A DNA stretch of 64,000 nucleotides from an uncultured Eubacteriales bacterium (lineage in GTDB: Bacteria > Bacillota > Clostridia > Christensenellales > Aristaeellaceae). The notes under the pieces are model-generated. The model did not search any database. It was not told where the DNA came from and was given only the letters and a program-made list of their open reading frames with translations. Shown in pieces: positions 5,776-37,206 of the stretch. The translations under genes and the position numbers were made by a program. The stretch spans positions 35,514 through 99,513 of the forward strand of contig CACZXF010000008.1 in assembly GCA_902785105.1 (NCBI GenBank). Direction: 5' to 3'. Within the stretch, counting starts at the first letter, position 1. Every line of letters starts with the position of its first letter.

Positions 5776-5826
5776 GCTCTATGACCGCCGCACAAGCGAC
5801 GGCCTTCTGTTTCCATTAGAAATAGA

Positions 5827-5855
5827 TTGTTTTCCCGAGAGGCATGTGCTATAAT
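5827..5855 (+). promoter_or_regulatory. Sigma-A promoter of the PBP4B-like gene
   Basis: TTGTTT at 5827-5832, a 17-base spacer, and a perfect TATAAT at 5850-5855. The predicted start of transcription is about 5862, which falls on the ribosome site AAGGAG at 5862-5867, so the leader would be only about 14 bases long. Confidence 0.8.
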
Positions 5856-5875
5856 GACCGTAAGGAGTGTAATAA

Positions 5876-22377: not shown

Positions 22378-22410
22378 TTGTTTCATCTCCTTTTTGTAAT
22401 AATTCCTTCC

Positions 22411-22579
22411 GCCCCGATAAATTGGAATTTGTCGGGGAATCAAACCAACCCTGTAGGGGCGCCGTTTCGGCGCCCGCTCCCTGCGAGACGTTGCGTTCTA
22501 TCGGGCGGGCGGCGCAACGCCGCCCCTACAAGAGCGTGTGCATCTCCCCGACAAATCCCTGTTTATCGACAGGACTGAA
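22411..22579. repeat. Palindromic intergenic repeat, copy 3
   Basis: Arms CCCCGATAAATTGGAATTTG and its partner CAAATCCCTGTTTATCGACA, with both GC hairpins between. Its core is nearly identical over more than 100 bases to the copy at 38614-38804. Confidence 0.88.
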
Positions 22580-22593
22580 CAGTTATTCTTTTT

Positions 22594-24975
22594 CTAAATA
22601 ATCGGAATTGTCAGCGAAACGGATTCGTCGCCCTCATCCTCGGACACAAACAGGGTCACCTCGCCGGTTGCCCCGGCCCGCACTACGGCCAGCGCCTCGC
22701 CATAATAGGTCTCTGTCCTGCCATCGGTGTAGTTGCCGCGCACATAGGCATTGGCGCTGCACAGGCCCATCAGCGTGCCGTTTTCCGCCCTGGCCTTCAG
22801 GGTATGATGCTCTGTCGGCATCCATATTCCGTTTTTATCCGCATAGCGCAGGCGCACGAAGCACAGGGCACCGGGGCGCGCCGCGTCAGTCTCGGGGAGC
22901 AGCCGAAGCGCTGCCGGACCCGTCGCGGATGACAGAGAACAGGTGCCCTGAACCGCGCCGTTCGCGTCATAGGCAATTGCGGTCAGCTCGCCCGGCGCGT
23001 AGCTGGTTTTGAAGAGGGTCCGGCAGGACTTATGCGCCTTTTTGCGACCCAGGCTCTCGCCGTTCAAGAGAAGCTCCACCTCGACCGCCCGCGCGTAGAC
23101 CTCCACGACGGCGGGCTTTCCCCCACACCCCGGCCAGGCCCAGCTTTCGACGGCCTTGGTCAGGTTCCAGCCCGTCAGGTTGGGCCGGTCCTCCCGGTCC
23201 ACGGGCCAGACGCCGATGGAGGGCGCGGCCTGCTGTCCCAGCGCCACGCGGGTGTAGGCCGCCTCGGCCCGTGGCTTGCCGGTCAGGTCGATCCGGCCGT
23301 TGCCGCCGGTCATGCGGGTCTCCTCGGCTTCCATGCGATAGTCGCCGTATTCCGGGGCGCCGTCGCCGGTCTCGCCGATGTAGTCCATGCCCGCCCAGAC
23401 GAAATCGCCGATGATCTGCGGGTTATCCCGTGCGATGTCCCAGAACAGCCAGGCGTCCTTGCAGAAGGTCTCCGAGCCCAGTATCAGCCGGTTCGGATAC
23501 TTCTTGACGTCCTTTTTGTAGCGCCAGATGCCGTAGTTGTAGCCGGCGATGTCCATCTTTGAGAAGGCGTCGCGGGTCTTGACGTCGCTGCCGTGGAGCG
23601 TCGCGCCCCACTTCATGAACTTGTCGCCCATCATGCAGGCGAGGCGGTTGTAAAACTCGCTGCCCACGGCCTTCTTCTTTTTGGGCTTGTCGGGCTTCGG
23701 AGCCTGCTTCTCGGCCTTCTCGTCGGAATAGACGCCCATGCCCATGGAGCTCAGAAAGTTGAAGAATATGTTGATGCCGCAGGTGACCGGGCGGGTGTCG
23801 TCCAGGGAATGGAGGTATTCGGTCATTTCGGCGGTGAACTGTATGCCCTCGGGCCGGGCGGTCTCGGCCACCTCGTTGCCGGTGGAGTACATGATGACCG
23901 ACGGGTGGTTGTAGTCCTTCTCCACCATGTCCCTCAGGTCCTGCTGCCACCAGTCCTTGAGATAGGTAACGTAATCGTATTTGGTCTTGTGCATGGTCCA
24001 GGCATCCACGTATTCGTCCATCACCAGCATTCCCAGCCGGTCGCAGGCCTCCAGCAGCGCCTTGGAGCAGGGGTTGTGGGCGCTGCGCAGGGCATTGTAG
24101 CCGTTCTCCTTGTGGAGGCGCACCTTGCGCTCCTCGGCCTCCGGAAAGGCGCAGGCTCCCAGGGGGCCGTTGTCGTGATGTATGCACGCGCCGCGCAGTA
24201 TGACCCGCTCGCCGTTGATGGTCATGCCCGCCTGTGGGGACCAGGCCAGGGTCCGTATGCCGAAGCGCTCCTCCACCACGTCATCCCCGAAGGTGACCCG
24301 GCAGGTGTACAGGTTCGGATGATCGGGAGTCCACAATTTGGCATCCGGCACGGTGATTTTGAACAGCAGACTGGACTTCCGTCCAGTATGGCGGCGCGCA
24401 TAGACGACCTGTTCGCCGTCCAGAATCTCCAGCAGCACCTCGCCGGGACGGGAAGTTTTGACGAGGACCTCGATCTGCCCGGTGTGATAGTCCAGTGTGC
24501 GGATGCGCACGCCGTTCAATTTAATGTGATCCTCGCCGCCCATCCACAGGCTGACCGGGCGATAGATGCCCGTGCCGGAATACCAGCGGCTGTTGGGCTG
24601 GTCCGCGTTGTGGGCGACGACGCGTAGTGCGTTTTCCCAGCCATAGCGCAGGTATTTGTTCAGGGGAACATAAAAGTTGGTATAGCCGTAGGGGCGATAA
24701 GCCACCTTTTCGCCGTTGACGTACACCTCGGCGTTGTGATACACGCCCTCAAACTCCAAAATGAGCTTGCGCCCCCGCCACTCTTCCGGGATGGACAGCG
24801 TTCGGGTATACTCATAGTCGCCGCCCATGTACCAGCCGATGTTGCCCTCGCCCGGGCTTTCCGGGGTGCGGGGCTCATCCAGCATGGCATCGTGGGGCAG
24901 CGTCACCGCCTTCGGAGCCCCCTCGCGGCTGAGGGGGCGCACCGTCCAGCGGTCGTTCAGATCGATCCTCTTCAT
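22594..24975 (-). CDS. Glycoside hydrolase family 2 (beta-galactosidase-like)
   Basis: A 793-residue cytosolic GH2 enzyme. Order: sugar-binding jelly roll (about 1-165, with FEGVYHNAEVYVNGEKV), immunoglobulin-like domain (about 165-260), TIM barrel (about 260-560) and C-terminal beta domains of the DUF4982 type. The acid/base lies in MYSTGNEVAET and the nucleophile in ILGSETFCKD; HNPCSKALLEACDRLGMLVMDE is the usual barrel signature. A basic linker with KPDKPKKKK near residue 425 is unusual. Substrate may be a beta-galactoside or beta-glucuronide; not decided by sequence. Starts 2 bases after the GH43 stop, so the two are one transcript. Confidence 0.9.
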   Translation of the reverse strand: MKRIDLNDRWTVRPLSREGAPKAVTLPHDAMLDEPRTPESPGEGNIGWYMGGDYEYTRTLSIPEEWRGRKLILEFEGVYHNAEVYVNGEKVAYRPYGYTNFYVPLNKYLRYGWENALRVVAHNADQPNSRWYSGTGIYRPVSLWMGGEDHIKLNGVRIRTLDYHTGQIEVLVKTSRPGEVLLEILDGEQVVYARRHTGRKSSLLFKITVPDAKLWTPDHPNLYTCRVTFGDDVVEERFGIRTLAWSPQAGMTINGERVILRGACIHHDNGPLGACAFPEAEERKVRLHKENGYNALRSAHNPCSKALLEACDRLGMLVMDEYVDAWTMHKTKYDYVTYLKDWWQQDLRDMVEKDYNHPSVIMYSTGNEVAETARPEGIQFTAEMTEYLHSLDDTRPVTCGINIFFNFLSSMGMGVYSDEKAEKQAPKPDKPKKKKAVGSEFYNRLACMMGDKFMKWGATLHGSDVKTRDAFSKMDIAGYNYGIWRYKKDVKKYPNRLILGSETFCKDAWLFWDIARDNPQIIGDFVWAGMDYIGETGDGAPEYGDYRMEAEETRMTGGNGRIDLTGKPRAEAAYTRVALGQQAAPSIGVWPVDREDRPNLTGWNLTKAVESWAWPGCGGKPAVVEVYARAVEVELLLNGESLGRKKAHKSCRTLFKTSYAPGELTAIAYDANGAVQGTCSLSSATGPAALRLLPETDAARPGALCFVRLRYADKNGIWMPTEHHTLKARAENGTLMGLCSANAYVRGNYTDGRTETYYGEALAVVRAGATGEVTLFVSEDEGDESVSLTIPII

Positions 24976-24977
24976 AA

Positions 24978-26465
24978 TTATTTCAGTTCAAAATCGACGA
25001 AATCGAAGGTGCCCTTTCCCTCGATGGAGAAGTACAGCGCCTCCTTATCCCCCAATCCGCCCGGCAGGTCGGTTTCAAAGGTCTGAGCCTTTGTGCAGGT
25101 GATCACGGGGAGCTTACACAGCAGGTCTCCCCCATGCTCCTTTGTCCTGACCGTCACGGCGCAGTCCGGGCTGTTGGCGTAGCCCTGTAGCGTCACCGCC
25201 AGCTTCTTCGTGTTCCGCAGATCGAAATACTTGAAGCCCACGGTGCAGCCGGTGCAGAAGTTGGAAACGTACTGGTCCGGCTCGTTGACGGGGCCCTTTT
25301 CCGGGTCGCGGTCCGTGCCCTTCATAGTCAGGAACGGGTCCGCGCCCTTGGGATGCTTCAGCATCGACAGGAAGCGCGTGCCGTTTCTGCCGTAGACGTT
25401 GCAGGCGATGTAGGCGGGATATTTGCCGACACCTGCCAGCGGGCCGCCGTTCAGGCCGCAGGAGGTCATCTCCGCCTGGAGGAATTTACCATTGACGAAT
25501 TGTATCTCGTCGGCGCAGGCCTGGCGAGAGGACTGCTTGCGGTTGGAGTGGCGGTGATAGAAGATATAATACTTGCCGTTGAGCCTGATGAGACTGCCGT
25601 GGGTGTTGCCGGTACACATGCGGGCGTGCTGGACGTCCGGGACGCCCTCCAGCCCGATGTCGCCGCAGGACACCAGCACACCGCCGAACTCAAAGCCGCC
25701 GGTGGGGCTGTCGGAGACGGCATAGCACAGGTTGTGGCTGTTCAGCGAGGAATAGATGAAGTAATACTTCCCGTCGAACTTGCGCATGGAGCTGGCCTCG
25801 CCGAAGGGCTGAGCCTCATAGGGCGTGCCCTTGGCCGCCTCGCCGGTCTTGACGCCGAGATAGTGCAGCTCGTCGCCGGAGATCACCGTCAGCATGTCGG
25901 AGGTGTCCAGTTCGAACCACATGGGACCTTCCTTTGTGGGCTGGGATCCGTCCAGCAGGATGGGATTGCCGCCGAAGGCGAAGCCGGTGTACAGGTACAG
26001 TCTGCCGTCCTCGTCCATCAGGCAGCCGGGGTCGAACTGGAAGGGTTCGTTCCGCTTGCCGATGGGGGTGCCGTCCTTGTAGTGGACATAGCCCAGGAAC
26101 TCATACTTGCCCGCGGGTTCGTCGCACACGGCCACGGAGATCATCTTCGTACCGCCCATGAAGTAGTAGAGGTAATACTTTCCGTCCGGACCTACCACCA
26201 TGTCCGGGGCCGCGAGGCCGTTGGTGACGCGGATCTTTGGCGCGGCGGGATCCTGCTCGCGTTTGAAGATCACGCCGTGATAGGTCCAGTTGCCCAGATC
26301 GTCCAGCGGCGCGGACCAGCAAACATAGTCGCCCAGGCAGAAGTTGATGCCGTTGAACAGGTCGTGGGAGCCGTAGATATACACCCGGTTCCCAACGACG
26401 TGAGGTTCCGCGTCGGGCACGTATTCCCAGGAGGGCAGATAGGGATTGAAAGCCTGCTTGTTCAC
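24978..26465 (-). CDS. Glycoside hydrolase family 43 protein (arabinosidase/xylosidase-like)
   Basis: A 495-residue five-bladed propeller enzyme without signal peptide. The three acidic residues of GH43 can be placed: the base aspartate in YVPDAEPHV (near residue 18), the pKa-tuning aspartate in LAAPDMVVGPDGKYYLYY, and the acid glutamate in FGEASSMRKFDGKYYF. Blade motifs such as DGRLYLYTGF and NGKYYIFYHRHS recur. From about 375 on a beta-sandwich resembling a CBM6-type module follows. Likely cleaves arabinose or xylose side chains from imported oligosaccharides with the adjacent GH2 enzyme. Confidence 0.9.
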   Translation of the reverse strand: MNKQAFNPYLPSWEYVPDAEPHVVGNRVYIYGSHDLFNGINFCLGDYVCWSAPLDDLGNWTYHGVIFKREQDPAAPKIRVTNGLAAPDMVVGPDGKYYLYYFMGGTKMISVAVCDEPAGKYEFLGYVHYKDGTPIGKRNEPFQFDPGCLMDEDGRLYLYTGFAFGGNPILLDGSQPTKEGPMWFELDTSDMLTVISGDELHYLGVKTGEAAKGTPYEAQPFGEASSMRKFDGKYYFIYSSLNSHNLCYAVSDSPTGGFEFGGVLVSCGDIGLEGVPDVQHARMCTGNTHGSLIRLNGKYYIFYHRHSNRKQSSRQACADEIQFVNGKFLQAEMTSCGLNGGPLAGVGKYPAYIACNVYGRNGTRFLSMLKHPKGADPFLTMKGTDRDPEKGPVNEPDQYVSNFCTGCTVGFKYFDLRNTKKLAVTLQGYANSPDCAVTVRTKEHGGDLLCKLPVITCTKAQTFETDLPGGLGDKEALYFSIEGKGTFDFVDFELK

Positions 26466-26479
26466 ACTTACACCTCCCG

Positions 26480-26899
26480 TTACGCCTGCTTCTTCACATT
26501 GGCAAACGCTGCAATACAGGCCAGCAGCGCGGCCACGGCCATGAACACCAAGGCGACCAGGGCGCTCTTGAGGTCCGCCATATTGGCCTCGTTGGCCTCA
26601 AAGGTCATGATGGCAGCGATGCCGTTGATGCGGGAGTTGAGCAGGGTCAGAAAGCCGAACATGAACAGCGACGGCGCAGCCAGAGGCAGTATGTCCTTCC
26701 AGGTGACCTTCGCTTCGCCCAGAGCGATCCAGAGCAGCAGCGCGACGATGCCGACGATCAGACTGCATATGACAAGGGTGTTCTTTCCGAGGCCCACAAA
26801 ATAGGTGGTGCCCGCGTTCATCATATAGGCGATCAGCCCCACGACAGCCGCGCAGGCGGCCAGCAGGCTGACGATGGTTCCGAAATAGGATCTTTTCAT
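26480..26899 (-). CDS. Small four-helix membrane protein
   Basis: 139 residues with four hydrophobic segments (IVSLLAACAAVVGLIAYMM, TLVICSLIVGIVALLLWIAL, a helix around PLAAPSLFMFGFLTLL, and LVALVFMAVAALLACIAAFA). No family recognised with certainty. ATG 26899 is 8 bases after AAGGAG. It sits 14 bases upstream of the GH43 gene in the same direction and is part of the glycosidase operon. A role in transport or as a membrane subunit is possible, but nothing in the sequence shows it. Confidence 0.7.
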   Translation of the reverse strand: MKRSYFGTIVSLLAACAAVVGLIAYMMNAGTTYFVGLGKNTLVICSLIVGIVALLLWIALGEAKVTWKDILPLAAPSLFMFGFLTLLNSRINGIAAIMTFEANEANMADLKSALVALVFMAVAALLACIAAFANVKKQA

Positions 26900-26971
26900 T
26901 TTCTTCGCTCCTTTTCCTGATGGGTGGATGCGTATCAATGCGACTTCACAGAGATAATTTTGTGCTGATGA

Positions 26972-27213
26972 TTAATTGGGAATTGTCGGGGTGAATTGAA
27001 AATGGAAAATTGAAAATTAAGTTGCCAGCGTTCGTGCCTAACAAACAGTGTTACTGTAGGGGCGGCGTTGCGCCGCCCGCCGGGTACCGCGATGCGTTTC
27101 GTTGGAGGCGGGTGCCGAAACGGCGCCCCTACAAGGATATCGGCAGTACCATTATAATTTTCAATTTTCAATTATAAATTTTCAATTCAACTCCCCGACA
27201 AATTCCAATTTAC
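26972..27213. repeat. Palindromic intergenic repeat, copy 4, with nested AT-rich arms
   Basis: Outer arms ATTGGGAATTGTCGGGG and CCCCGACAAATTCCAATT. Inside lies a second inverted pair, GAATTGAAAATGGAAAATTG against CAATTATAAATTTTCAATTC, then the usual two GC hairpins. It fills the gap between the GH3 gene and the small membrane protein. Confidence 0.85.
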
Positions 27214-27217
27214 CACC

Positions 27218-30200
27218 TTACGCCTTCCTCTTCCGGATAAACATGAAGCCACAGAGCACGAACAGCACCGCGAAAGCGATGTTCAGGCCGGTGAGCAGCT
27301 TGTCGTACCAGGTCTGCACGGCCTCGATGTGGCTGGAGGAGACCACGCCGTCCATGGCATTGGAATTGGCGAGGGCGTAGTTCTGCATCTTCATGGCGTT
27401 CTTCAGCGCCTGCTGAAGATTGGCGTCCGCGCCTACGGTGGCCTCGTTCCAGTTCAGCGCCGGATAGTAGGCCGCCACCGCCGCCAGGGAATTGTCGCCG
27501 GTGTTGCAGGACATGGTGATGCCGTTCAGCACGGCTTCCTTCAAGGAGGCGTACACGGGGTCCATGATGAAGTCCTCACTGATGAGGCCGTAGAAGCCGA
27601 ACTCACCGTGAAGGATGTTCTTCTGGAGGCCGGTGTGGGCGTTGTCGGTGTAGCAGCCGACGCGGTTGTAGGCGGTCATGACGCCCAGCGCCTTGGCGTC
27701 CTCGATGGGCGACTGCATGGCGCGGATGTCGCCCTCGCGGGCCTTCTGCTCCGTCATGAAGGGCGCCACGCCGGTGCGGTTCATCTCCGTATCGTTGAAG
27801 GCGAAGTGCTTCACGGACGCGATGACGCCATAGCGCTGCTCGGCCTCGGTCTGGGCCGCGGCCAGGAAGGAGGACAGCACGGGGTCCTCGGAGTAATACT
27901 CCAGGTTGCGTGCGCAGTAGGGCAGGCGGTGCAGGTTGGCCGAGATGCCCCAGAGAATGGTGCAGTTGGACCACAGGGACCAGTTGCCCACGGTCTCGCC
28001 CCATTCCTTGGCCAGCTCCTTGTTGAAGGTCTGGGCCACGACGATGTTGTTCGCCATGATGTTGCCCATGAAGCCGGCGTTCTTGTCGTTGTCCGCGATG
28101 ACACAGGGGTCGCCGGAGGAAGCGTCCTTGTTGGCGTACTGGCCCAGCGGGTAGTTGGCGAAGCCGGTGGGGCCGTCGTTCTGGATGGCCTCGGGAGAGG
28201 AGATGGAGTCGATGGCCTTGGTGCTGGTGCCGCCGAAGGCCGTGCGGATGAGCGCCTCGGAGAGCTGCATCTGGTCGATGAGCTGATCCCAGCGGGCGTC
28301 GTCCTTATCGGAAACGCCCTTCAGGTTGCCCAGGGTCAGACCGTTGGACGCGCCCCAGGTGACAGCGCCCTCGCCGCCGGTCTGGTACTCATAAACGTCG
28401 TTGTCCATGACGGCCAGCATGTCCGCCGTGGCGGTAAGGCCGGAATAGGTCTTGGGGAAGGTGCCCGCCCAGTCGTTTCGGGTCAGCCAGGTCACGGTGT
28501 CGGGCATCCAGTAGTTGAGGTCCATGTCCGCAAGCTGGTTTTCCACGGCGGTGCCGTTCTTGGTCTTGGCGAAGGTCTCGCCGTCCAGGGCGTCCAGGTG
28601 CCAGGTCTGCACGTTGGCGGCGTCGCCGTCAGCGGAGGGTCCGCTCCCAGCGGTCATGCCGTCTGCGGCGGTCTTGCCCTGGGCGGCCAGCACGTTGTTC
28701 AGCGCCTCGTGCGCGCCGTTGCCCACGGTGAAGAAGTAGTCGCCGTCGTCCAGGATGTAGCAGCCCTTGGTCCCGGCGGCGTTGTCGGCGGTGGAATCCC
28801 AGCTCGCCATGTAGGTCAGGTCGGCGGTGATGGTCACCGTCTCCGACTGGCCGGGCTCGATGATGCCGGTCTTGGCGAAGTCCAGCAGCTGTATGGCGGA
28901 CTTCTCCACGCCATGCTCGATGTCGTAGGCGGTGTAGGGCACGGAAACGTAGAGCTGCACGGCGTCTTTGCCCGCCACGCTGCCGGTGTTGGAGACCTCC
29001 ACAGTCGCCTTGGCGGTCTTTGCGGCCAAATCCACCTCCAGCGCGGTGATCTTCTGCTCAAAGGTGGTGTAGGACAGGCCGAAGCCGAAGGGATAGGTTA
29101 CTTCATTTTCATAGCGCCACGCGCCGCCGGTGCTGCCTACATCGGAATCGGCGTCGCCCTGGCCCAGCACCACATCCGCGTAGCGGGTCTCGTAATACTT
29201 GTAGCCGGTGTAGATGCCCTCGGCCTCCACGATGGCGTCATTGATGTACTGCTCCGGGGCGGCGTTGGCCCACTGGAGGTCGCCGTAGTTCATGGCGGCG
29301 GGGCTGATGGAGTTGTCCACCGCGTAGGTGTCCGTCAGGTGGCCGCTGGGGTTGGCATCGCCCTTCAGGAGGTCCGCCACGCCGTAGAAACCGAAACTGC
29401 CGGGGGTGCCCACCTGAAGGATGGCGCCGATGCCGTCATTCTTCGCTAGTTCGTCGATCTCCATGGGGTTGCCGTTGTTCAGCAGCACGATGACCTTGCC
29501 GCCGCTGGCCTGAGCCGATTCGATGGCCGCCGCGATGAGGTTCCGCTCGTCGTCGGACAGGCCCAGGGGGTCGGCCTGATTGAGGCCGTCCGCGGGGTTG
29601 ACGCCCGCCTCACCGGGGGTGTAGTCCGCGTTCTCAGAGCCTGCGCGGCCGATGGTGACGATGATGACGTTGTTGGCCGCCAGGGAATCCCGCCAGCCGC
29701 CGTCGATGCCGTCCAGGTCCGCCGGGGAAGGCTCCTTGTCGGTGTACACACCGCCCACGGAGGGCGCGGTCAGCGTCAGATATTCCGCCGTACCCGTCCA
29801 GGTGGCCACCTCAGACTTGAAGATGACCTTGGCCGCGTCGCCGTTGTAGAGGGTCTTCAAAGTGGGGTTCAGCGTGAAGCCCCGGGCCTCCAGCGCGCCC
29901 ACCAGGTCCACGGTGTCCGCGTCGGTGCCGTGGTTTTCCGCGGCGGTGGGGCCCAGGATCGCGCCCTTGTTCGGGAAGTAGGAGGAGAAGCCCAGAAGGG
30001 AAACCTTGCCGATCTCATCCGCGCTCAGCGGCAGCGTGTTGTTTTCATTTTTCAGAAGAACGCTGCCCTCCTCGCTCATGCGCTCGCCAATGTCGGCCAT
30101 GGCCGTCACCAGATCCGTGGTGGATTTGTAGTCCGTGGAATAGGTGTAAAGCTCCTCCGGGGTGACATTGCCGTCCGTCACGATGCGGCTGCTGACGGTG

Positions 30201-30322
30201 CCCAAAAATTTGTTGATGTCCGTCCGGTGGTCGGATACGATGGCGCCCGCGGTCAGTGACGTTGTCAGAAGCATCGCCATGACGGTCGTAAGGCCGCGCC
30301 ATAAACGTGATTGTCTGCCCAT
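27218..30322 (-). CDS. Circularly permuted, membrane-anchored GH3 beta-glucosidase-like protein
   Basis: A 1034-residue GH3 enzyme with its domains in reversed order. The C-terminal-type alpha/beta domain comes first (SVLLKNENNTLPL, IIVTIGRAGSENADY), then a fibronectin III-like part (YPFGFGLSYTTFE). The TIM barrel usually found at the N-terminus comes last (DGPTGFANYPLG, VIASVKHFAFNDTE, and the nucleophile region FGFYGLISEDFIMDP). One membrane segment lies at each end (LTTVMAMLLTTSLTAGAIV and LNIAFAVLFVLCGFMFIRKR), so the enzyme is probably tethered outside. ATG 30322 follows GAGGAGG by 6 bases; the promoter is directly upstream. Probably the external enzyme feeding the leftward operon. Confidence 0.9.
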   Translation of the reverse strand: MGRQSRLWRGLTTVMAMLLTTSLTAGAIVSDHRTDINKFLGTVSSRIVTDGNVTPEELYTYSTDYKSTTDLVTAMADIGERMSEEGSVLLKNENNTLPLSADEIGKVSLLGFSSYFPNKGAILGPTAAENHGTDADTVDLVGALEARGFTLNPTLKTLYNGDAAKVIFKSEVATWTGTAEYLTLTAPSVGGVYTDKEPSPADLDGIDGGWRDSLAANNVIIVTIGRAGSENADYTPGEAGVNPADGLNQADPLGLSDDERNLIAAAIESAQASGGKVIVLLNNGNPMEIDELAKNDGIGAILQVGTPGSFGFYGVADLLKGDANPSGHLTDTYAVDNSISPAAMNYGDLQWANAAPEQYINDAIVEAEGIYTGYKYYETRYADVVLGQGDADSDVGSTGGAWRYENEVTYPFGFGLSYTTFEQKITALEVDLAAKTAKATVEVSNTGSVAGKDAVQLYVSVPYTAYDIEHGVEKSAIQLLDFAKTGIIEPGQSETVTITADLTYMASWDSTADNAAGTKGCYILDDGDYFFTVGNGAHEALNNVLAAQGKTAADGMTAGSGPSADGDAANVQTWHLDALDGETFAKTKNGTAVENQLADMDLNYWMPDTVTWLTRNDWAGTFPKTYSGLTATADMLAVMDNDVYEYQTGGEGAVTWGASNGLTLGNLKGVSDKDDARWDQLIDQMQLSEALIRTAFGGTSTKAIDSISSPEAIQNDGPTGFANYPLGQYANKDASSGDPCVIADNDKNAGFMGNIMANNIVVAQTFNKELAKEWGETVGNWSLWSNCTILWGISANLHRLPYCARNLEYYSEDPVLSSFLAAAQTEAEQRYGVIASVKHFAFNDTEMNRTGVAPFMTEQKAREGDIRAMQSPIEDAKALGVMTAYNRVGCYTDNAHTGLQKNILHGEFGFYGLISEDFIMDPVYASLKEAVLNGITMSCNTGDNSLAAVAAYYPALNWNEATVGADANLQQALKNAMKMQNYALANSNAMDGVVSSSHIEAVQTWYDKLLTGLNIAFAVLFVLCGFMFIRKRKA

Positions 30323-30353
30323 AGTCTGCCTCCTCATAATAATGTATAATATT

Positions 30354-30382
30354 ATTCTAACACAGAGACGCGGCAATGTAAA
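30354..30382 (-). promoter_or_regulatory. Promoter of the GH3 gene and leftward glycan operon
   Basis: On the minus strand, TTTACA (30382-30377), a 17-base spacer, then TAGAAT (30359-30354) preceded by TGT, an extended -10. It lies back-to-back with the start of the SGNH-LRR cassette, whose own -10 TATAAT is at 30447-30452. Confidence 0.7.
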
Positions 30383-30483
30383 AATATATATTTGTTATTT
30401 AACATTATTCGATGAATTGTAATGTTCATATTCATGCAATAAGCATTATAATGATAAGTGAAAATGAAAAACGGGGATAAATA

Positions 30484-32256
30484 ATGAGGAGAACGATCAT
30501 ACTCTGCGTCTGCCTGTCCATGCTGCTGAGCGCCTGCGGCCAACGGATGAATAATCCTGAGCGGACGGTGCGCGTGGTGCTGGAAGAGGGGGACGGCTTT
30601 GCCGCGGAGGAGCGGGTGTTTGACGGGTCTGCAGGCGGCACATTTCGCATAAAGGTCATCCCCTTTGAGGATTGGGAGATCGAGGGCTGCGATTATCCCG
30701 GCGCGACCTGCGCGACGGATGACGACGACGCCGTCGAAATCACACTGGACGACGTACGCTACAGCACCGTGGTCACCCTGTCCGCCGAGCAGCACCCCTA
30801 TCGCATCCGCTATCACGATGACGATAATATAGAGGAAGTCTCCCGCCCCGCCCATCATCTGCGCGTCAACACTGCCACGCGAAGCAATATCGACGGGCTG
30901 ATTTCCGACGACGGCGCCCGCCTTCTGTGCGGCTGGAAGCTGGAAAACGGAAAACGCATTGACCTGGGGAGCCGGGTGGATGTGAACAAGGGCGTTCCGC
31001 TGGATTTGTACGCGGACTGGCACGCGTTTGGCAAGGCTGACGACTTTGACCGGGAATCGGATGCCTCGGGGCGGGCGGTGATCCGCGGGTATCGCGGCAG
31101 CGCTTCGGAGATCGTCATCCCCGCGCATATCAATGGTCAGCCCGTCGTCAGTATCGCGGCGGGGGCCTTTGCGGGCGTCGAATGTGAAAGCGTCATACTG
31201 CCGCCGACGGTGGAGGTCGTGGAACCTCACGCCTTTGATGGCTGCGCCTTTTCCTCGCTCACATTTTTCGACACCATTCGGGAGATCACCGATTACGCGT
31301 TCTCGGACTGTAAGCAGCTCCGGGAAATACACATCAACGCTGTGCGGCCTCCGGTGTACAGCGGCACGTATTTTGACACCTTTCCGGACAAGCTGGACCG
31401 GCTGCGGAGCCTGAAGGACCGCCCGAAGATCATACTGTTTTCCGGCTCCTCCACCCGCTTCGGCTACGATTCGGAGATGATCAACAGCGCGTTTCCGGGA
31501 TATGATGTCGTGAACATGGGCGTGTATGCCTACACCAACGCGCTGCCCCAGTTCGACCTGATGCTTCAATATGTGAAGCCGGGGGATATACTGCTCCACG
31601 CTCCGGAATTTGACGCCGTCAAGCGTCAGTTCTGCGTAACGAACGCCATGGATGAACACTTCTTCGCCATGATCGAATCGGATTACGATATTTTGAGCCT
31701 CCTGGATTATCGGGATTACGGCGGCGTGCTGTCCGCGTTCACCACGTTTCAGAAAAACCGTCAGGGCATGTCTGAGGGGAACTATCAGCTCAGCGCCGCC
31801 CGCTTTGACGAGGACCACAATCCCGTTTCCAGCCCCTCCTATAATATCTACGGCGACTACATCGTCCATCGCCCCAATGGCGCGGATGATACGCCCATCT
31901 ACAACCTGCCGGTGGACTATCTGGCGGGGGCATTTCCGGCAAAGACCGTCATCGAGCCACTGAATCGGGTGTATCAGCGGTTTCAGAACGCGGGCGCGCG
32001 GGTGTTCTTCACATACGCGCCGAGGAACCGGCTGGCGCTGTCCGAACGCAGCACCGAGGCGGAGCGGGCACGACTGGACGAATGGCTGCGGCAAAGTCTC
32101 GCCGCGCCTGTCATTTCGGACATCGAGGCGTCCCTGTTCCCCGGCCATCTGCTCTACGGCACCGACAACCATCTGTCCACCGAGGGCGTCAGCCTGCGCA
32201 CGGCGATGGTGATCCGGGACATTCAAGACCATCTGGAGAGGGAGGGTGTTGAATGA
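30484..32256 (+). CDS. Lipoprotein with BspA-like LRR and SGNH acyltransferase-like domain
   Basis: A lipoprotein (lipobox LSAC, lipidated C18) of 590 residues. A beta-rich part leads to two or three BspA-type leucine-rich units at about 205-290 (EIVIPAHINGQPVVSIAAGA, PPTVEVVEPHAFDGC). An SGNH-like domain follows: KIILFSGSSTRFGYD with S322/S323 as candidate nucleophile and the C-terminal GTDNHLSTEG with D561 and H563. SGNH proteins next to an MBOAT gene move acyl groups onto surface polymers outside the cell (as AlgX/AlgJ or DltD do). Its stop overlaps the MBOAT start (ATGA). The LRR part may bind the polymer or cell wall; that is inference. Confidence 0.82.
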   Translation: MRRTIILCVCLSMLLSACGQRMNNPERTVRVVLEEGDGFAAEERVFDGSAGGTFRIKVIPFEDWEIEGCDYPGATCATDDDDAVEITLDDVRYSTVVTLSAEQHPYRIRYHDDDNIEEVSRPAHHLRVNTATRSNIDGLISDDGARLLCGWKLENGKRIDLGSRVDVNKGVPLDLYADWHAFGKADDFDRESDASGRAVIRGYRGSASEIVIPAHINGQPVVSIAAGAFAGVECESVILPPTVEVVEPHAFDGCAFSSLTFFDTIREITDYAFSDCKQLREIHINAVRPPVYSGTYFDTFPDKLDRLRSLKDRPKIILFSGSSTRFGYDSEMINSAFPGYDVVNMGVYAYTNALPQFDLMLQYVKPGDILLHAPEFDAVKRQFCVTNAMDEHFFAMIESDYDILSLLDYRDYGGVLSAFTTFQKNRQGMSEGNYQLSAARFDEDHNPVSSPSYNIYGDYIVHRPNGADDTPIYNLPVDYLAGAFPAKTVIEPLNRVYQRFQNAGARVFFTYAPRNRLALSERSTEAERARLDEWLRQSLAAPVISDIEASLFPGHLLYGTDNHLSTEGVSLRTAMVIRDIQDHLEREGVE

Positions 32257-33569
32257 ATTTCGTCAGTCCCCTGTTCCTGCCCGGCCTGGCGCTGACGGTG
32301 TTTTTCTATCGACGATTGCCCGGACACGCCCGGCCCGGACTGCTGCTGATGGTCAGCCTGGCCTTTTTCCTGCTCGACAGCCCCGCCTCCGCGGCGGTGC
32401 TGCTGGCGGTGATCGCCCTTTCCTGGCTGATGGGGTTGTCGTTGGAGAGGGTGCAGCACCGCAAGGCGCTCCTGCTTGGCGGCAGCGGCCTGATGCTGGG
32501 AAACCTCTGTGTTTTCAAGGCAGCGCCGCTTGGGTTCATCCCCATCGGCATCTCCTTTTACACCTTTCAGGCCCTGGCCTACTGCGTCGATGTCTATCGG
32601 GGCCGCTTTCCCGCGGAGCGCGATCCCCTTCGCTACGCGCTGTTTGTCGCCTTCTTCCCCCAGGTGACGGCTGGTCCCATCGAGCGCCCCGGAAGCCTGA
32701 TGCCCCAGTTGGAGGCGTGTCCCTCCCCCACCTCCGGCGACTTCCGCGTCGGCGGATTCCTGATACTGCGGGGCTTTGCGCGAAAGATCATCATCGCGGA
32801 CGGACTCGCGCCGCTGGTGGACGGGTTGTTCGTCCGCGTCGGCGGGCTGACCGGCCCTGAGGCGCTGGCAGCCTGCGCGCTTTTCGCGTTTCAGATCTAC
32901 GCGGATTTCGCCGGGTATACCGACATCGCCCGGGGCGCGGCGCGGCTGATGGGCATACGCCTCAGCGAGAACTTCGACCATCCCTACCGCGCCCGCGGCC
33001 TGCGGGATTTCTGGCGGCGCTGGCACATGACGCTGACCGGCTGGCTTCGGGATTACGTCTACATCCCGCTGGGCGGCAGTCGGCGCGGCGGGCCTCGGAC
33101 GGTCATCAACGTGCTGATCGTGTTTGCATTAAGCAGCCTCTGGCACGGCCTTGGGCTTCACTTTCTGGCCTGGGGACTGGCCCACGGGCTGCTGATGCTG
33201 GCGGATGACCGCCTTTCCCGAAAGCCGGGGCCCCTGCTGACCTTCATCCCCGTCTGCCTGCTGTGGGCGCTGTTCCGCGCGCCGACCCTCTCCGCAGCGG
33301 GCGCGCTCTACGCCGCGCTGCCCACGGGCTGGAGGCTGGCCCCAGCGCTCTTATGGAGCTTTGTCCACGCCCATCCCTGGACAATCCTGCGGCTGGCCGC
33401 CATGCCCCTTATCCTTCTGCTGACGGACAGGGTCCCCGTGGAGACGGACGTTCCGGCGGATATGAAAAGTCTGCTGTCGGGATATGCCCTCTTCCTCATC
33501 ATAATGCTTTGTCTGTTTGCCGACCTGAGAAGCGACGCCATCACGCCCTTCATCTACTTTCAGTTTTGA
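32253..33569 (+). CDS. MBOAT family membrane O-acyltransferase
   Basis: A 438-residue polytopic protein of the AlgI/DltB/PatA type, which passes an acyl group across the membrane for O-acylation of a surface polymer. Family marks: FIPIGISFYTFQALAY, FPQVTAGPIERP, FQIYADFAGYTDIARG, ENFDHPYRARGLRDFWRRWH with H258, and the catalytic-histidine motif SSLWHGLGLHFLAWG with H298. About 11 hydrophobic helices. It sits between two SGNH-LRR genes, overlapping the first and 6 bases from the next. The polymer being modified cannot be told; no teichoic acid (dlt) or alginate genes are nearby. Confidence 0.93.
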   Translation: MNFVSPLFLPGLALTVFFYRRLPGHARPGLLLMVSLAFFLLDSPASAAVLLAVIALSWLMGLSLERVQHRKALLLGGSGLMLGNLCVFKAAPLGFIPIGISFYTFQALAYCVDVYRGRFPAERDPLRYALFVAFFPQVTAGPIERPGSLMPQLEACPSPTSGDFRVGGFLILRGFARKIIIADGLAPLVDGLFVRVGGLTGPEALAACALFAFQIYADFAGYTDIARGAARLMGIRLSENFDHPYRARGLRDFWRRWHMTLTGWLRDYVYIPLGGSRRGGPRTVINVLIVFALSSLWHGLGLHFLAWGLAHGLLMLADDRLSRKPGPLLTFIPVCLLWALFRAPTLSAAGALYAALPTGWRLAPALLWSFVHAHPWTILRLAAMPLILLLTDRVPVETDVPADMKSLLSGYALFLIIMLCLFADLRSDAITPFIYFQF

Positions 33570-33575
33570 GCCGCC

Positions 33576-34868
33576 ATGCGTACAAGACGTTTTATCATCA
33601 TCAGCACATTGCTCACGGTACTGCTGGCCGCACCCTTCACGCTGGCCGGACTGCTGCTCCCGCCGCAGTATCAGGGCACCTATCTGGGGGCCTTTCAGGA
33701 GAAGTGCCATCTTCTGGAAAACACGCCCGGCAAGCGCATCATCGTTGCGGGCGGCAGCGGCGCGGCCTTTGCCATCGACAGCGCCCTGCTGGAGCGGAAT
33801 TTTCCTGGCTACAGCGCTGTCAACCTGGGCATGTACGGCGACCTCGGCATCAAGGTGCCGCTGGACATCGCCCGTTCCTGCCTGCATGAGGGCGACATCG
33901 TCATCATCGCCCCCGAGCAGCACGCGCAGACGCTCTCCCTGCGCGTGGGCGGCCGATCCGCCCTGCAATGTCTGGATGGCGCCTGGTCGCTGCTCTTGCG
34001 CATGGACAGCGCGGACTACGGCGCGCTCATGGCCTATCTGCCGGAGTTCTCGCTGGAAAAGTGGCGCTATGCGCTGTCCGGCGGCCGCTCCGAGGGCGAG
34101 GGCGTCTACAAAAGGGATTCCTTCAATCATTATGGCGACATTGAGACGGACATCGCCGCGGCCAACACTATGCCCAACCTGTATGACCCGACGGTGGAAA
34201 TCTCCTACGATCCCGCGCAGATCGAACAGAGCTTTGTTGATTATCTGAACCGGTTCGCGTCTTCGGCCAAAAGAAGCGGGGCGGAAGTCTGTTATTACTT
34301 CTGCCCCGCCGATCGGCTGGCTGTGACCGGTGAGTACGCGCCGGATGATTTTTACAACGCGCTGAGTGAGGCTCTGACCTTCCCCATACTGGGAGACCCC
34401 AACCACAGCGTCATGGACGCAGGATGGTTTTTCGACACCAATTTTCACCTGAATCAGTCCGGCAGAACAGTGTACACGCGACAGCTCATCCGTGATCTGA
34501 AGGCCTGGAAGGGCATTGCCGCCCGCACCGACATCGCACTGCCCCCGCTCCGCTCCCCCGCTCCCGACTGGAACGGCTTTACCGTGACGCGGAAAATGTG
34601 GGCAGGCAACGCGGAGATCACCGAGGTGGAGCTTCCCGAAAACACCATCGTCATTGAAGACTATGCCTTTGATGGATGCGGCGCCCTCAAATATATCCAT
34701 CTGAGGAATCCTCAACCCTCCAGGGTCATCGTCGGCGACCATCTGCTGGATGGAACCGCCGCCGCTCTGATCGTTCCCCGTGGCACCCTTTCCGCCTATC
34801 GCACGGACTATCGCTTTTCCAGATACGCCGATCGCATCGAAGAGGAGAAACTCAGTCCTTCGGATTGA
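33576..34868 (+). CDS. SGNH-like protein with C-terminal LRR segment
   Basis: 430 residues with an N-terminal membrane anchor or signal (residues 6-28). An SGNH/DltD-like domain follows with IIVAGGSGAAFAID (S61 as candidate nucleophile), NLGMYGDLGIKVPLDIA and FFDTNFHLNQSG (D287, H291). The C-terminal 90 residues carry a BspA-type leucine-rich unit (ITEVELPENTIVIEDYAFDG). Domain order is the reverse of the first gene in the cassette, where the LRR precedes SGNH. The pair plus MBOAT looks like a complete acyl-transfer unit with two extracellular partners. Start is supported mainly by spacing after the MBOAT stop; the ribosome site is weak. Confidence 0.8.
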   Translation: MRTRRFIIISTLLTVLLAAPFTLAGLLLPPQYQGTYLGAFQEKCHLLENTPGKRIIVAGGSGAAFAIDSALLERNFPGYSAVNLGMYGDLGIKVPLDIARSCLHEGDIVIIAPEQHAQTLSLRVGGRSALQCLDGAWSLLLRMDSADYGALMAYLPEFSLEKWRYALSGGRSEGEGVYKRDSFNHYGDIETDIAAANTMPNLYDPTVEISYDPAQIEQSFVDYLNRFASSAKRSGAEVCYYFCPADRLAVTGEYAPDDFYNALSEALTFPILGDPNHSVMDAGWFFDTNFHLNQSGRTVYTRQLIRDLKAWKGIAARTDIALPPLRSPAPDWNGFTVTRKMWAGNAEITEVELPENTIVIEDYAFDGCGALKYIHLRNPQPSRVIVGDHLLDGTAAALIVPRGTLSAYRTDYRFSRYADRIEEEKLSPSD

Positions 34869-34881
34869 TATGATTTGAGCA

Positions 34882-35056
34882 GCGATTCAGTTCTCTACGA
34901 TAAACAGGGTTTTATCGAAGAGATACTCACTCTCCTGTAGGGGGCGGCGTTGCGCCGCCCGCCCAATAGAACGAACCGCCACATAGGGGACGGGCGCCGA
35001 AACGGCGCCCCTACAGGGTTGGTTTGTCTCCCCGCCAAATCCCAATTAATCAATCC
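34882..35056. repeat. Palindromic intergenic repeat, copy 5 (reverse orientation)
   Basis: Arms ATTCAGTTCTCTACGATAAA on the left and CCCCGCCAAATCCCAATTAA on the right. The hairpins come in the order GGCGGCGTTGCGCCGCC, then GGGCGCCGAAACGGCGCCC. It lies between convergent genes. Confidence 0.85.
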
Positions 35057-35064
35057 GAACTCAA

Positions 35065-36945
35065 TCATTCCCGACTCGCCTGTATATTCACCCTGCCATT
35101 TTCTTTATCAATGCGCACAGAGCCGTTTCTGATCGGAACGACGCAATGCAGTTCTTTAAAGAACTCCACGTGAGGCGCGACATCATAGCGCGTATAGCCG
35201 GGCTCCAGGGGCTTTACACCAAGGAAATAGCGACCGATGAGATAGATCGGGCTGGCTGACCAGGCATGGCACAGGCTCTTTCCGAAGGGATCTCCGTACA
35301 TGGCGTAATGCTCCTTTCCGGTGCAGGTGGGGTCATACTGTTCCCAGAAGGTCACCGCGCCCTTTTCAACCATGCCGCCCCAGTAGGTGTGAAGGGCCTC
35401 CCAGATGATGTCCAATCTGCCCAGCTTTCCCCACATGTCCAGCTCAAAGAACTTGAAATACGGTGTAGTGATGGCCGGGATCGCGTCATTGAGGAGCACA
35501 TGGTCGAGTATCGCTTCCGTTTTGTCCGCCTCCACGAGTCCGAAAAGAATGGCGAATATGTTGGCATGCCGGGTGACATTGTTTCTGCCGGATTCATAGG
35601 TATCAATGAAAGCCTGCTTCTCCTCATTCCAGAAGTAATGAAGGATATTGGCTTTCAGCATCGCCGCCTTATCCGCCCAGCCCGCGTCGGGCTTCCCAAG
35701 CACCTTTCCGCAATCGTCCATGACCCGGCAGCATTTCCACAGCAAAATCTGCTCCGCGCACAGAACGCCGTCCTTATCCATTTCCGCCCAGTCGATGTAG
35801 ATCCAATCCCTTTCCCGGCCATAGATAAAGCCCAGTTCGTTGGTCTGCTTCATCAGCAGGGCCATCATCGCTTCCAGCTTCGGGTACATCTCAGCAAGGA
35901 AATCCGCGTCTCCGGTCATCCAGTAGTGGTTCTCCAGGCCGATCACCCACAGCATGGAATAGTCCACGATGGTATTCAGGTGTTGAGTGATCTCCGTATT
36001 GCCCCGTAAGGCGCGTATGGTGCGCTTGTTGATCTCCTCATCGAAGAAGAGATACTGATTGACGAAATAGCTCTGGTAGGCGTCCCCGGACCAGATCCAG
36101 CGGTCCCGCTTGATGCCATCGATGAAAAACAGCCCGCTGCACAGCCGGAAGGTCTCCACAGAGATATCCCAGATGCGATTCAGCAGCGCGTCGTCACAGT
36201 GAAAGGACGCCCGGACCTCCAGCGGAAATTCCTCATGGACAGCCTCGCAATCCATCGTTTCGGTGCTGCCCTCCGGAATATAGACATATCGAAATGCTCG
36301 TTTGCGCAGCCACATGCCGTCAACGGTATTCTCCTCTTTGTAATAGCACCACTTTAGGTCCAGCGCCTCGGCCTCTGATTCACCATAGGCCACGGTGACG
36401 GTCTGCGCCTTATCCCCGGTGATAATTTTCAATGAACCGTTTATCATCCTGCCAAAGTCGAACAGTACGCCGCCATTGACCTCCCGCTTTGATACAGGCT
36501 TGCATGGAACATAGCGCCAGGGTATCTGATTGGGATTCGGCTCCGCTTCAGTATACAGCGGAGAATACCCCACCGCGCGACATTCGCGGAAGTCGTCGGC
36601 CATCCACTCCGGCGTTGAATGAATCACATCGCCCTCCACACAGGCGCAGGGCAGCGCCGCCATGTTGCCGACATATATTTCGATTTTGTGCTTCCCCGCG
36701 GGGCAGGTGATATCCCGTTCAAAACTGTATTTTCGTCCGTCCACTGCCACATAGCCAACGCCCTGGGCATGCACGACAAACCGGGAATCCCTTTCCAGTT
36801 CATAGTCCCTGCTGAAGCATACATTCTTTCTCCAGTCATCCATCTTCCAGTAAGCCGGCCAGCCATAGCCGCGCTCTTCACGCTGGAAGTTTTGCAGCAT
36901 TCCATGATAGATCTCAAAATCACCGGGATACCATATCCAGTTCAT
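35065..36945 (-). CDS. Second alpha-L-rhamnosidase-like glycosidase (GH78 type)
   Basis: A 626-residue cytosolic protein. N-terminal beta-sandwich domains (about 1-240) hold a sugar-binding-like fold; the (alpha/alpha)6 barrel starts near LCSGLFFIDGIKRDRWIWSGD, the counterpart of the GH78 acidic signature, and includes GAVTFWEQYDPTCTGKEHYA and the HAWSASPIYLIGRYFLG end. A small C-terminal beta domain completes it. ATG 36945 is about 9 bases after AGAGAGG; an ATG three codons earlier is too close to that site. It stands apart from the first glycan operon, with no transporter next to it. Exact substrate not determinable. Confidence 0.82.
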   Translation of the reverse strand: MNWIWYPGDFEIYHGMLQNFQREERGYGWPAYWKMDDWRKNVCFSRDYELERDSRFVVHAQGVGYVAVDGRKYSFERDITCPAGKHKIEIYVGNMAALPCACVEGDVIHSTPEWMADDFRECRAVGYSPLYTEAEPNPNQIPWRYVPCKPVSKREVNGGVLFDFGRMINGSLKIITGDKAQTVTVAYGESEAEALDLKWCYYKEENTVDGMWLRKRAFRYVYIPEGSTETMDCEAVHEEFPLEVRASFHCDDALLNRIWDISVETFRLCSGLFFIDGIKRDRWIWSGDAYQSYFVNQYLFFDEEINKRTIRALRGNTEITQHLNTIVDYSMLWVIGLENHYWMTGDADFLAEMYPKLEAMMALLMKQTNELGFIYGRERDWIYIDWAEMDKDGVLCAEQILLWKCCRVMDDCGKVLGKPDAGWADKAAMLKANILHYFWNEEKQAFIDTYESGRNNVTRHANIFAILFGLVEADKTEAILDHVLLNDAIPAITTPYFKFFELDMWGKLGRLDIIWEALHTYWGGMVEKGAVTFWEQYDPTCTGKEHYAMYGDPFGKSLCHAWSASPIYLIGRYFLGVKPLEPGYTRYDVAPHVEFFKELHCVVPIRNGSVRIDKENGRVNIQASRE

Positions 36946-37206
36946 AAGCTGCATTCCTCTCTTTTTTTAACTACATCGCATGTTAGCCCGCAAAAATCTG
37001 ATTCCTTTGAGAAGTCCGGAATCCCCATTACTTCTCAATAACGCAGATGAGCGCAGACAGGTTTTACAATGAATAACGGCTACGTTCTCCGTCAAACTTC
37101 CAATATCTGCCGGACATCAGCACAGATCCGGCCTATGTATGATTTTTTATAGCAGGCATCTGTTCTTCCCAAATGCGTTTCTTGCCTGTATTTGTATTCG
37201 ATGCAG
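36946..37206. other. Intergenic region with no recognised gene
   Basis: This 261-base gap is the upstream region of the second GH78-like gene. It is more AT-rich than the genes around it. I looked for a minus-strand promoter and found only poor matches (TTGCGG, 17 bases, TTAAAA). No repeat of the family is present. Confidence 0.5.

Follow-up and report, generated by a model that had tools for sequence, protein, structure and literature searches.

A 64,000-nucleotide stretch of contig CACZXF010000008.1 from an uncultured Eubacteriales bacterium (assembly GCA_902785105.1), called the window here, carries three head-to-tail genes, A, B and C, at 30484-34868 of its + strand. Gene B encodes an O-acyltransferase of the MBOAT family. 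The proteins of A and C both combine a BspA-type leucine-rich repeat (LRR) with an SGNH-like domain, and the order is LRR-SGNH in A and SGNH-LRR in C. The best reading of the trio is that it belongs to the bacterial extracytoplasmic O-acyltransferases of MBOAT-SGNH type, in a variant form whose two SGNH paralogues both bear an LRR and may work in relay; the probability of this reading was put at about 0.62. The end of A and the start of B share 4 bp (ATGA), and B and C are separated by 6 bp. The original prediction, made from the letters of the window alone, had placed the trio correctly at these positions.

30484..32256, + strand: gene A, a lipoprotein of 590 aa with a BspA-type LRR and then an SGNH-like domain
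32253..33569, + strand: gene B, an MBOAT O-acyltransferase of 438 aa (Pfam profile, His residues, C-terminal hexapeptide)
33576..34868, + strand: gene C, a membrane-anchored protein of 430 aa with an SGNH-like domain and then an LRR

The trio is a recurring arrangement. When 396 genomes of the order were searched with the SGNH domain of A, 18 matched at E<=0.001. Both fusions and an MBOAT gene stood at one locus in 13 of them, four had LRR-less MBOAT-SGNH pairs (G287, G369, G094, G391), and G082 had only fragments at contig edges. Three more trios came from the genome collection (L043, L045, L046) and one from the class survey (G670), which with the 13 order loci makes 17, the window included. 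At all 17 loci A is LRR-SGNH, C is SGNH-LRR, an MBOAT gene is near and the three genes share one strand. The spacing between LRR and SGNH domain is 8-15 residues in A at every locus and 15-82 residues in C. The gene order is A-B-C at 11 loci, C-A-B at two (L064, L066) and B-C-A at four (L065, L068, L069, L076), and further genes lie between the members at some loci. The LRR spans at the 17 loci were obtained with profiles trained on these same proteins. The independent check with Pfam covered 18 A-type and 19 C-type proteins, with the G670 pair and the L076 A-type proteins left out, and every protein scanned had an LRR_5 match (E<=1). Four further loci fall outside the count: in L044 the C gene lies at a contig edge, L061 and L067 have A but no MBOAT, and L079 has fragments. 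The domain order around the MBOAT had been proposed in the original prediction together with a search for such trios elsewhere; Pfam, the motifs and the recurring loci bear it out. The trio is rare and was found in one of 28 genus genomes (14 of which are >=90% complete and <=5% contaminated), 13 of 396 order genomes and two of 391 genomes of the class sample. In the class survey, the full C profile gave mainly LRR-only matches and was replaced by an SGNH-only profile; the frames G703 (327 aa) and G724 (314 aa) of that survey stand outside the trio count. In a phylum survey of 388 genomes, the genome of the window was the sole match at E<=1e-15.

Other MBOAT genes served as controls. They were taken from 121 order genomes, which hold two of the trios as well (G000, G117), and SGNH domains were recognised there by the A- and C-type profiles only. 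Of 65 such genes 63 were examined, with G124:C97 and G116:C9 left out; an 84-aa frame of G066 whose match is below the cut-off was not included in the count. Within 4 kb of the 63 genes, no SGNH neighbour fused to an LRR was found; the partner at L136 is cut by the contig end. Chance neighbourhood of common LRR proteins was ruled out by the 17 loci against none of the 63 controls, and the same controls rule out LRR fusion as a trait of all MBOAT partners.

The LRRs might still be generic surface-binding modules, unrelated to any coupling of A with C. LRR_5 is common enough for that: the window's own genome has 10 matches, the listed class survey matches cover the LRR part only outside four genomes, and within 4 kb of two of the 63 control MBOATs (L078, L104) lies an LRR protein that is separate and gave no SGNH match. 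Beside the trio of L063 there is also another lipoprotein-like gene (5388-7139, - strand), with LRR_5 below cut-off and a GNSFT motif that is SGNH-like by eye, so LRR-SGNH fusions may be a wider theme. However, the repeats are on both SGNH proteins in every trio and on no SGNH neighbour of the 63 other MBOATs, and the tight spacing in A is unlike a loose appendage. The generic role is rather doubtful on this evidence.

The MBOAT match of B (PF03062) reaches 96.3 bits (E 2.8e-27), over the cut-off of 27. His298 and His258 are invariant in the 23 MBOATs compared. The last hexapeptide of B, FIYFQF (433-438), has the form of the FXYXXF acyl-shuttle motif with Tyr435, and this motif stands at the extreme C-terminus with an invariant Tyr in all 23. 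According to PMC12148441, the FXYXXF tyrosine of PatA is acylated by the MBOAT and the group is then handed to an SGNH serine. We infer the same transfer from Tyr435 of B to an SGNH serine, because the acylation of the PatA tyrosine is published and the motif and the histidines are kept in the 23 MBOATs.

The domains and predicted residues of the two outer proteins are as follows.

31075-31353, + strand: LRR_5 of A, residues ~198-290 (Pfam)
31381-32244, + strand: SGNH-like domain of A, residues ~300-587 (motifs, Foldseek)
Within that domain: predicted nucleophile Ser322, oxyanion Gly346, Asp561 and His563 (sequence motifs)
N-terminus of C, hydrophobic from about residue 5: one membrane helix
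33711-34535, + strand: SGNH-like domain of C, residues ~46-320 (motifs, Foldseek)
Within that domain: predicted catalytic Ser61, oxyanion Gly85, Asp287 and His291 (sequence motifs)
34584-34847, + strand: LRR of C, residues ~337-424

A begins with a signal peptide and the lipobox LSAC (Cys18). This lipobox, the membrane helix of C and a glycosidase gene of family GH3 divergent from A are additions to the original prediction. The LRR_5 match of A (PF13306; 44.4 bits, E 1.9e-11) is above the curated cut-off of 27.7, and TpLRR is the solved protein nearest to this LRR. That of C is weaker (20.0 bits, E 7e-4) and below the curated cut-off; the BspA-type LRR structure 2lz0 matches residues 338-422 of C in phmmer (E 1e-9). 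No Pfam match was found in the ~170 residues between the lipobox region and the LRR of the window's A. Listeria-Bacteroides repeats occur in eight of the 18 A-type proteins scanned (Pfam, E<=1), with no match in the window's A.

The outer domains of A and C are likely SGNH, as judged from sequence motifs and models. They are homologous to each other (27% identity, E 4e-24). In both the motif order is S...H, with the nucleophile after a Gly (in a few proteins after Ser or Asp), then the oxyanion Gly and the His. The residue counts were made with truncated L076 11335 and L079 2 left out and the G670 pair absent. In the C-type proteins Ser, oxyanion Gly and His are each conserved in 19 of 19. In the A-type proteins the His is found in 20 of 20, the oxyanion Gly in 19 and a Ser nucleophile in 14. 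Ser and His are kept in 7/7 LRR-less SGNH kin as well. At the place of Block III, where Asn is usual, Glu stands in 19/20 A-type and 19/19 C-type proteins and in 1/7 of the LRR-less kin. Foldseek was run with low-confidence models, with a mean predicted local distance difference test score (pLDDT) of 57 for A and 69 for C, and the figures refer to the best 50 of 618 matches for A and the best 50 of 825 for C. Among them, probabilities to SGNH hydrolases range from 0.57 to 0.99 for A and from 0.85 to 0.99 for C, with E-values of 0.01-0.6. YxiM (2o14) has 0.99 with both models. The pLDDT-57 model of A also finds rhamnogalacturonan acetylesterase (0.97-0.98) and DltD (0.57-0.60), and the pLDDT-69 model of C finds platelet-activating factor acetylhydrolase (0.95) and EstA (0.90). 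LRR proteins are listed with both models too.

A membrane-anchored glycosidase of family GH3 is a probable fourth member and functional partner of the trio.

27218..30322, - strand: GH3 glycosidase of 1034 aa, ATG start at 30322 after a GAGGAGG stretch, divergent from A
30323..30483: divergent intergenic region between GH3 and A, 161 bp; each strand has a promoter-like site
30425-30452, + strand: promoter-like site TTCATA-16-TATAAT, a consensus match only
30382-30354, - strand: promoter-like site TTTACA-17-TAGAAT, a consensus match only

The domain order of the protein is Glyco_hydro_3_C, Fn3-like, Glyco_hydro_3, with scores over the cut-offs (77.8 against 31, 37.9 against 25 and 48.5 against 27, respectively), and there are hydrophobic stretches near both ends. 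Such a stretch at one or both ends is found in most of the trio-linked GH3 proteins. Six promoter-like consensus matches were found in 5 kb; shuffled sequence gave 2.2 on average. A GH3 gene is near the trio at 13 of 17 loci, with 0.1-4.2 kb from the nearest GH3 to a trio gene, and at one of 62 control MBOAT regions, most control regions being 6-11 kb and most trio regions 15-19 kb long. The trio loci without GH3 are L043 and L070, both on short contigs, L072 and L088. Mere abundance of GH3 genes was ruled out as the cause: GH3 was observed at 11 of the 13 order trio loci against 1.8 expected from the genome GH3 counts, on the assumption of random GH3 placement. Very many GH3 matches per genome were seen in G346 (60; L064), G175 (50; L065) and G253 (32; L071). 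The GH3 of the window is 81% identical to that of L046 over 819 residues and 66% to that of L045 over 361, both of which are cut by contig ends, and 26-44% identical over partial stretches to the matches listed in other genus genomes. Because the sequences are so close at these trios and distant elsewhere in the genus, GH3 appears to have travelled with the trio, as far as sequence comparison can tell. The unit of the original prediction therefore stands for the trio itself and falls short in its extent, since GH3 was missed, as were the two-component system, ligase and acyl carrier protein (ACP) of some relatives. A LytTR response regulator is found at eight of the 17 loci, a GHKL kinase at six, an AMP-forming ligase at six and an ACP at two. 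Both ACP-bearing trio loci are among the six with ligase, which is a possible donor supply. No LytTR regulator, GHKL kinase, ligase or ACP was found in the window.

By analogy with the known systems, we infer that the trio acylates a surface polymer, probably as follows. A thioester in the cytoplasm would supply the acyl group to B, which with its His298 would load the group on Tyr435 of its own FIYFQF peptide. On the outer side, the peptide would offer it to Ser61 of C, the SGNH protein that is anchored in the membrane and adjoins B. C may hand it to Ser322 of the lipid-anchored A or directly to the acceptor, and A would complete the transfer to the acceptor, most likely a cell-envelope glycan. 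The LRRs of C and A would be docking surfaces, holding the two SGNH enzymes together or holding the acceptor, and the membrane-anchored GH3 would act on the same glycan. The acylation set of MBOAT and SGNH proteins, the core of the original prediction, is supported by sequence, recurrence and context (His298, the shuttle hexapeptide, Ser and His in A and C).

The co-variation of the domains was compared by their distances. C_SGNH follows the MBOAT with a Spearman correlation of 0.48 (0.53 on 14 loci), whereas A_SGNH does not (-0.21; -0.15 on 14 loci). The highest value for A_SGNH was obtained with C_LRR (0.67; 0.61 on 14 loci; partial 0.60 both times), and that between A_SGNH and its own LRR is 0.59 (0.44 on 14 loci). 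The pair of A_SGNH and C_LRR is also at the top by Pearson on identities (0.83, with the linker counted into C_LRR). This pattern hints at a chain that runs from the MBOAT through C to A, in which C would contact A by its LRR. A two-stage covalent relay from the MBOAT Tyr to C and then to A, in which C uses its LRR to hold on to the SGNH domain of A and GH3 trims the same glycan, is a tentative elaboration and on the unlikely side. If true, acylation would be carried out on a scaffold of LRRs, in which the A-C pair is constant and the donor module (MBOAT with or without ligase and ACP) can be exchanged.

Several results weigh against the acyltransferase reading. No Pfam SGNH family matches the window's A and C, or the 18 A-type and 19 C-type proteins, at E<=1. 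The C-type SGNH profile found no match among PDB sequences at E<=10, and an hhalign comparison with DltD, represented by a profile of two proteins, gave a probability of 1.1%. The nucleophile of the A-type proteins is Cys in six of 20, and their acid residue is variable, with Asp at -2 in 12/20 and Asp at -4 in 12/20. Structure prediction of A and C, a check proposed in the original prediction, agreed with it in part: the SGNH matches reach 0.99, but the models are weak by their pLDDT, and sugar-isomerase-type proteins outrank most SGNH matches of C by E-value, at probabilities <=0.57. The co-variation pattern comes from 14-17 related loci with near-saturated distances. On plain identities, A_SGNH and MBOAT have a Pearson correlation of 0.24, reached by 33 of 2000 permutations, which misfits a strict chain. 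L045 is placed differently in the A and C trees, inside the group of the window. A phmmer search of the window with the ligases and ACPs of the relatives gave no donor enzyme, no ligase was seen at 11 of the 17 trios, and no polymer-synthesis gene was recognised in the annotated parts of the locus.

A parallel arrangement, in which B feeds both A and C for two acceptors or two positions of one, each LRR binding its own acceptor, is possible, though doubtful. The nucleophile Ser (or Cys) and the His are kept in both proteins, the LRR is at one end in A and at the other in C, which would suit a different geometry, and AlgI, which works with the two O-acetyltransferases AlgJ and AlgX (PMC9487903), is a precedent. 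The weakly positive A_SGNH-MBOAT value on plain identities would suit it too. Against it, the Spearman values show co-variation with the MBOAT for C and none for A, and several groups of the A and C trees pair.

Alternatively, C and B may add the acyl group and A may be an esterase that removes or edits it, after which GH3 would digest the deacylated glycan, in a degradative or remodelling unit. The Foldseek matches of A to rhamnogalacturonan acetylesterases, the GH3 linkage and the glycosidases of the window (GH2, GH43, rhamnosidase-like) point in this direction. However, Foldseek on a model of pLDDT 57 cannot separate esterases from transferases, and the Block III Glu of A is found in C too but mostly not in the LRR-less SGNH kin, which makes the esterase role quite unlikely. 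A Dlt-type D-alanylation system after loss of DltA and DltC was rejected as highly improbable: DltB is the solved relative nearest to B and the DltB model TIGR04091 matches B at 1e-40, and two relatives have ligase and ACP at the trio (the L076 ligase matching DltA models among others), but the 140 bits of B are far below the DltB cut-off of 375, no DltD match was found in the genome of the window, neither Pfam nor the profile comparison identifies A or C as DltD, and the window yielded no DltA- or DltC-like gene. Three of the six ligases were scanned and match best as fatty acyl-CoA ligase, below all curated cut-offs shown, and the shuttle motif is within B, as in MBOATs using acyl-CoA, and not on DltX (PMC12148441). 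Membership of AlgX/DHHW was also rejected, by the Ser before His in A and C and by the absence of these families from the Pfam matches at E<=1 of 37 proteins.

The preferred reading, an MBOAT-SGNH O-acyltransferase with twin LRR-SGNH enzymes, would make the trio work like PatA/PatB of Gram-negative peptidoglycan O-acetylation. Both share the MBOAT His, the C-terminal FXYXXF Tyr and an extracytoplasmic SGNH enzyme with a catalytic Ser. PatA/PatB has one SGNH partner, whereas the trio has two homologous ones with an LRR on both, a GH3 neighbour and SGNH domains outside Pfam. In having two SGNH-type enzymes for one MBOAT, the trio would resemble AlgI/AlgJ/AlgX of alginate O-acetylation. The binding module of AlgX is a carbohydrate-binding module. 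To our knowledge, whether AlgJ and AlgX act in series or in parallel is open, and the trio is a clean test case for two SGNH enzymes behind one MBOAT. AlgJ and AlgX are circularly permuted (H-S-G-N), as PMC9487903 describes, unlike the trio with its Ser before His and BspA-type LRRs. The DltB/DltD system of teichoic acid D-alanylation (with DltA, DltC and DltX) resembles the trio in that B is nearest to DltB and two relatives have ligase and ACP; the trio differs in the shuttle fused to B, the missing DltD match, no ligase or ACP found in the window and the twin LRR-SGNH proteins. We know of no LRR fusion for PatA1/PatB1, the DHHW system for O-acetylation of the Bacillus cereus secondary cell wall polysaccharide. 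It is also a Gram-positive MBOAT with an extracytoplasmic SGNH-superfamily enzyme; according to PMC9487903 the PatB1 active site is circularly permuted, whereas that of the trio has Ser before His. BspA-type LRR surface proteins (LRR_5), some with Listeria-Bacteroides repeats, have the same repeat module as A and C, but the module of the trio is joined to SGNH-like domains and encoded in one operon with an MBOAT. MBOAT-SGNH systems determine which bacterial surface polymers bear acyl groups. In those known to us, the SGNH domain is bare or has a sugar-binding module. The twin LRR-SGNH enzymes with a membrane-anchored glycosidase point to a different guidance of the acyl group to its acceptor.

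The original prediction had called the system undescribed. No description of an LRR-SGNH/MBOAT/SGNH-LRR set was found in the literature searched, which lay mostly outside subscription journals and in which long listings were covered in part. In the portion of PMC10100824 consulted, MBOAT/DltB and LRR proteins are separate rows of a Leptospira expression table, and the portion of PMC2824669 consulted has a single mention of MBOAT and none of LRR.

For the history of the trio, a tree of 50 SGNH domains was calculated with L076 11335 and L079 2 left out and the G670 pair and two LRR-less rows added. The 21 A-type rows form one clade (support 99/98; 100% of 200 bootstrap trees), and several of them are on long branches. 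The 20 C-type rows need three changes on this tree, and a single origin is possible. Several groups of the A and C trees mirror each other: the window with L043, L045 and L046; L062 with L063; L069 with L076; and L072 with L073. In a quick MBOAT tree, from which one control MBOAT shorter than 420 aa was left out, the MBOATs of the window, L043, L045 and L046 are grouped outside the main trio MBOAT group, both with 99 in the Shimodaira-Hasegawa-like approximate likelihood ratio test. For this reason the A-C pair may have been kept while its MBOAT was replaced. The closest relatives of the trio are in metagenome-assembled genomes labelled Lachnospiraceae and Butyrivibrio, as the labels are given, which can err for such genomes. 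Because of these relatives, the trio looks as if it had spread by horizontal transfer and is perhaps mobile between lineages.

Some variants of the set were observed. The Cys nucleophile is found in the A-type proteins of L064, L065, L066, L067, L068 and L071; L064, L065, L066 and L068 are trio loci with ligase, and no ACP was found there. The co-occurrence of Cys and ligase is not independent evidence, because the Cys proteins may be one lineage. At L076 (1-14712) the set is doubled: MBOAT, C-type and A-type genes each occur twice, ligase and ACP lie between the two MBOAT-C pairs, and the SGNH alignment of its second A-type gene is truncated. LRR-less MBOAT-SGNH sets with ACP stand at L078 (8912-13748) and L080 (6379-14368). 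These ACPs, together with an FkbH-like protein beside the ACP in L078, suggest that the donor, for instance a glyceryl group, is carried on the ACP. The genome of the window has a second MBOAT (L081, 11948-13354, - strand), which also ends in FXYXXF and adjoins a MurB-like gene (named by eye); no A- or C-type SGNH or LRR neighbour was found beside it. The trio itself is within a glycosidase-rich stretch of the window (20689-36954), in which the following genes are on the strand opposite to the trio.

20689-22443, opposite strand: MFS sugar transporter
22597-24975, opposite strand: GH2
24981-26465, opposite strand: GH43
35068-36954, opposite strand: alpha-rhamnosidase-like protein

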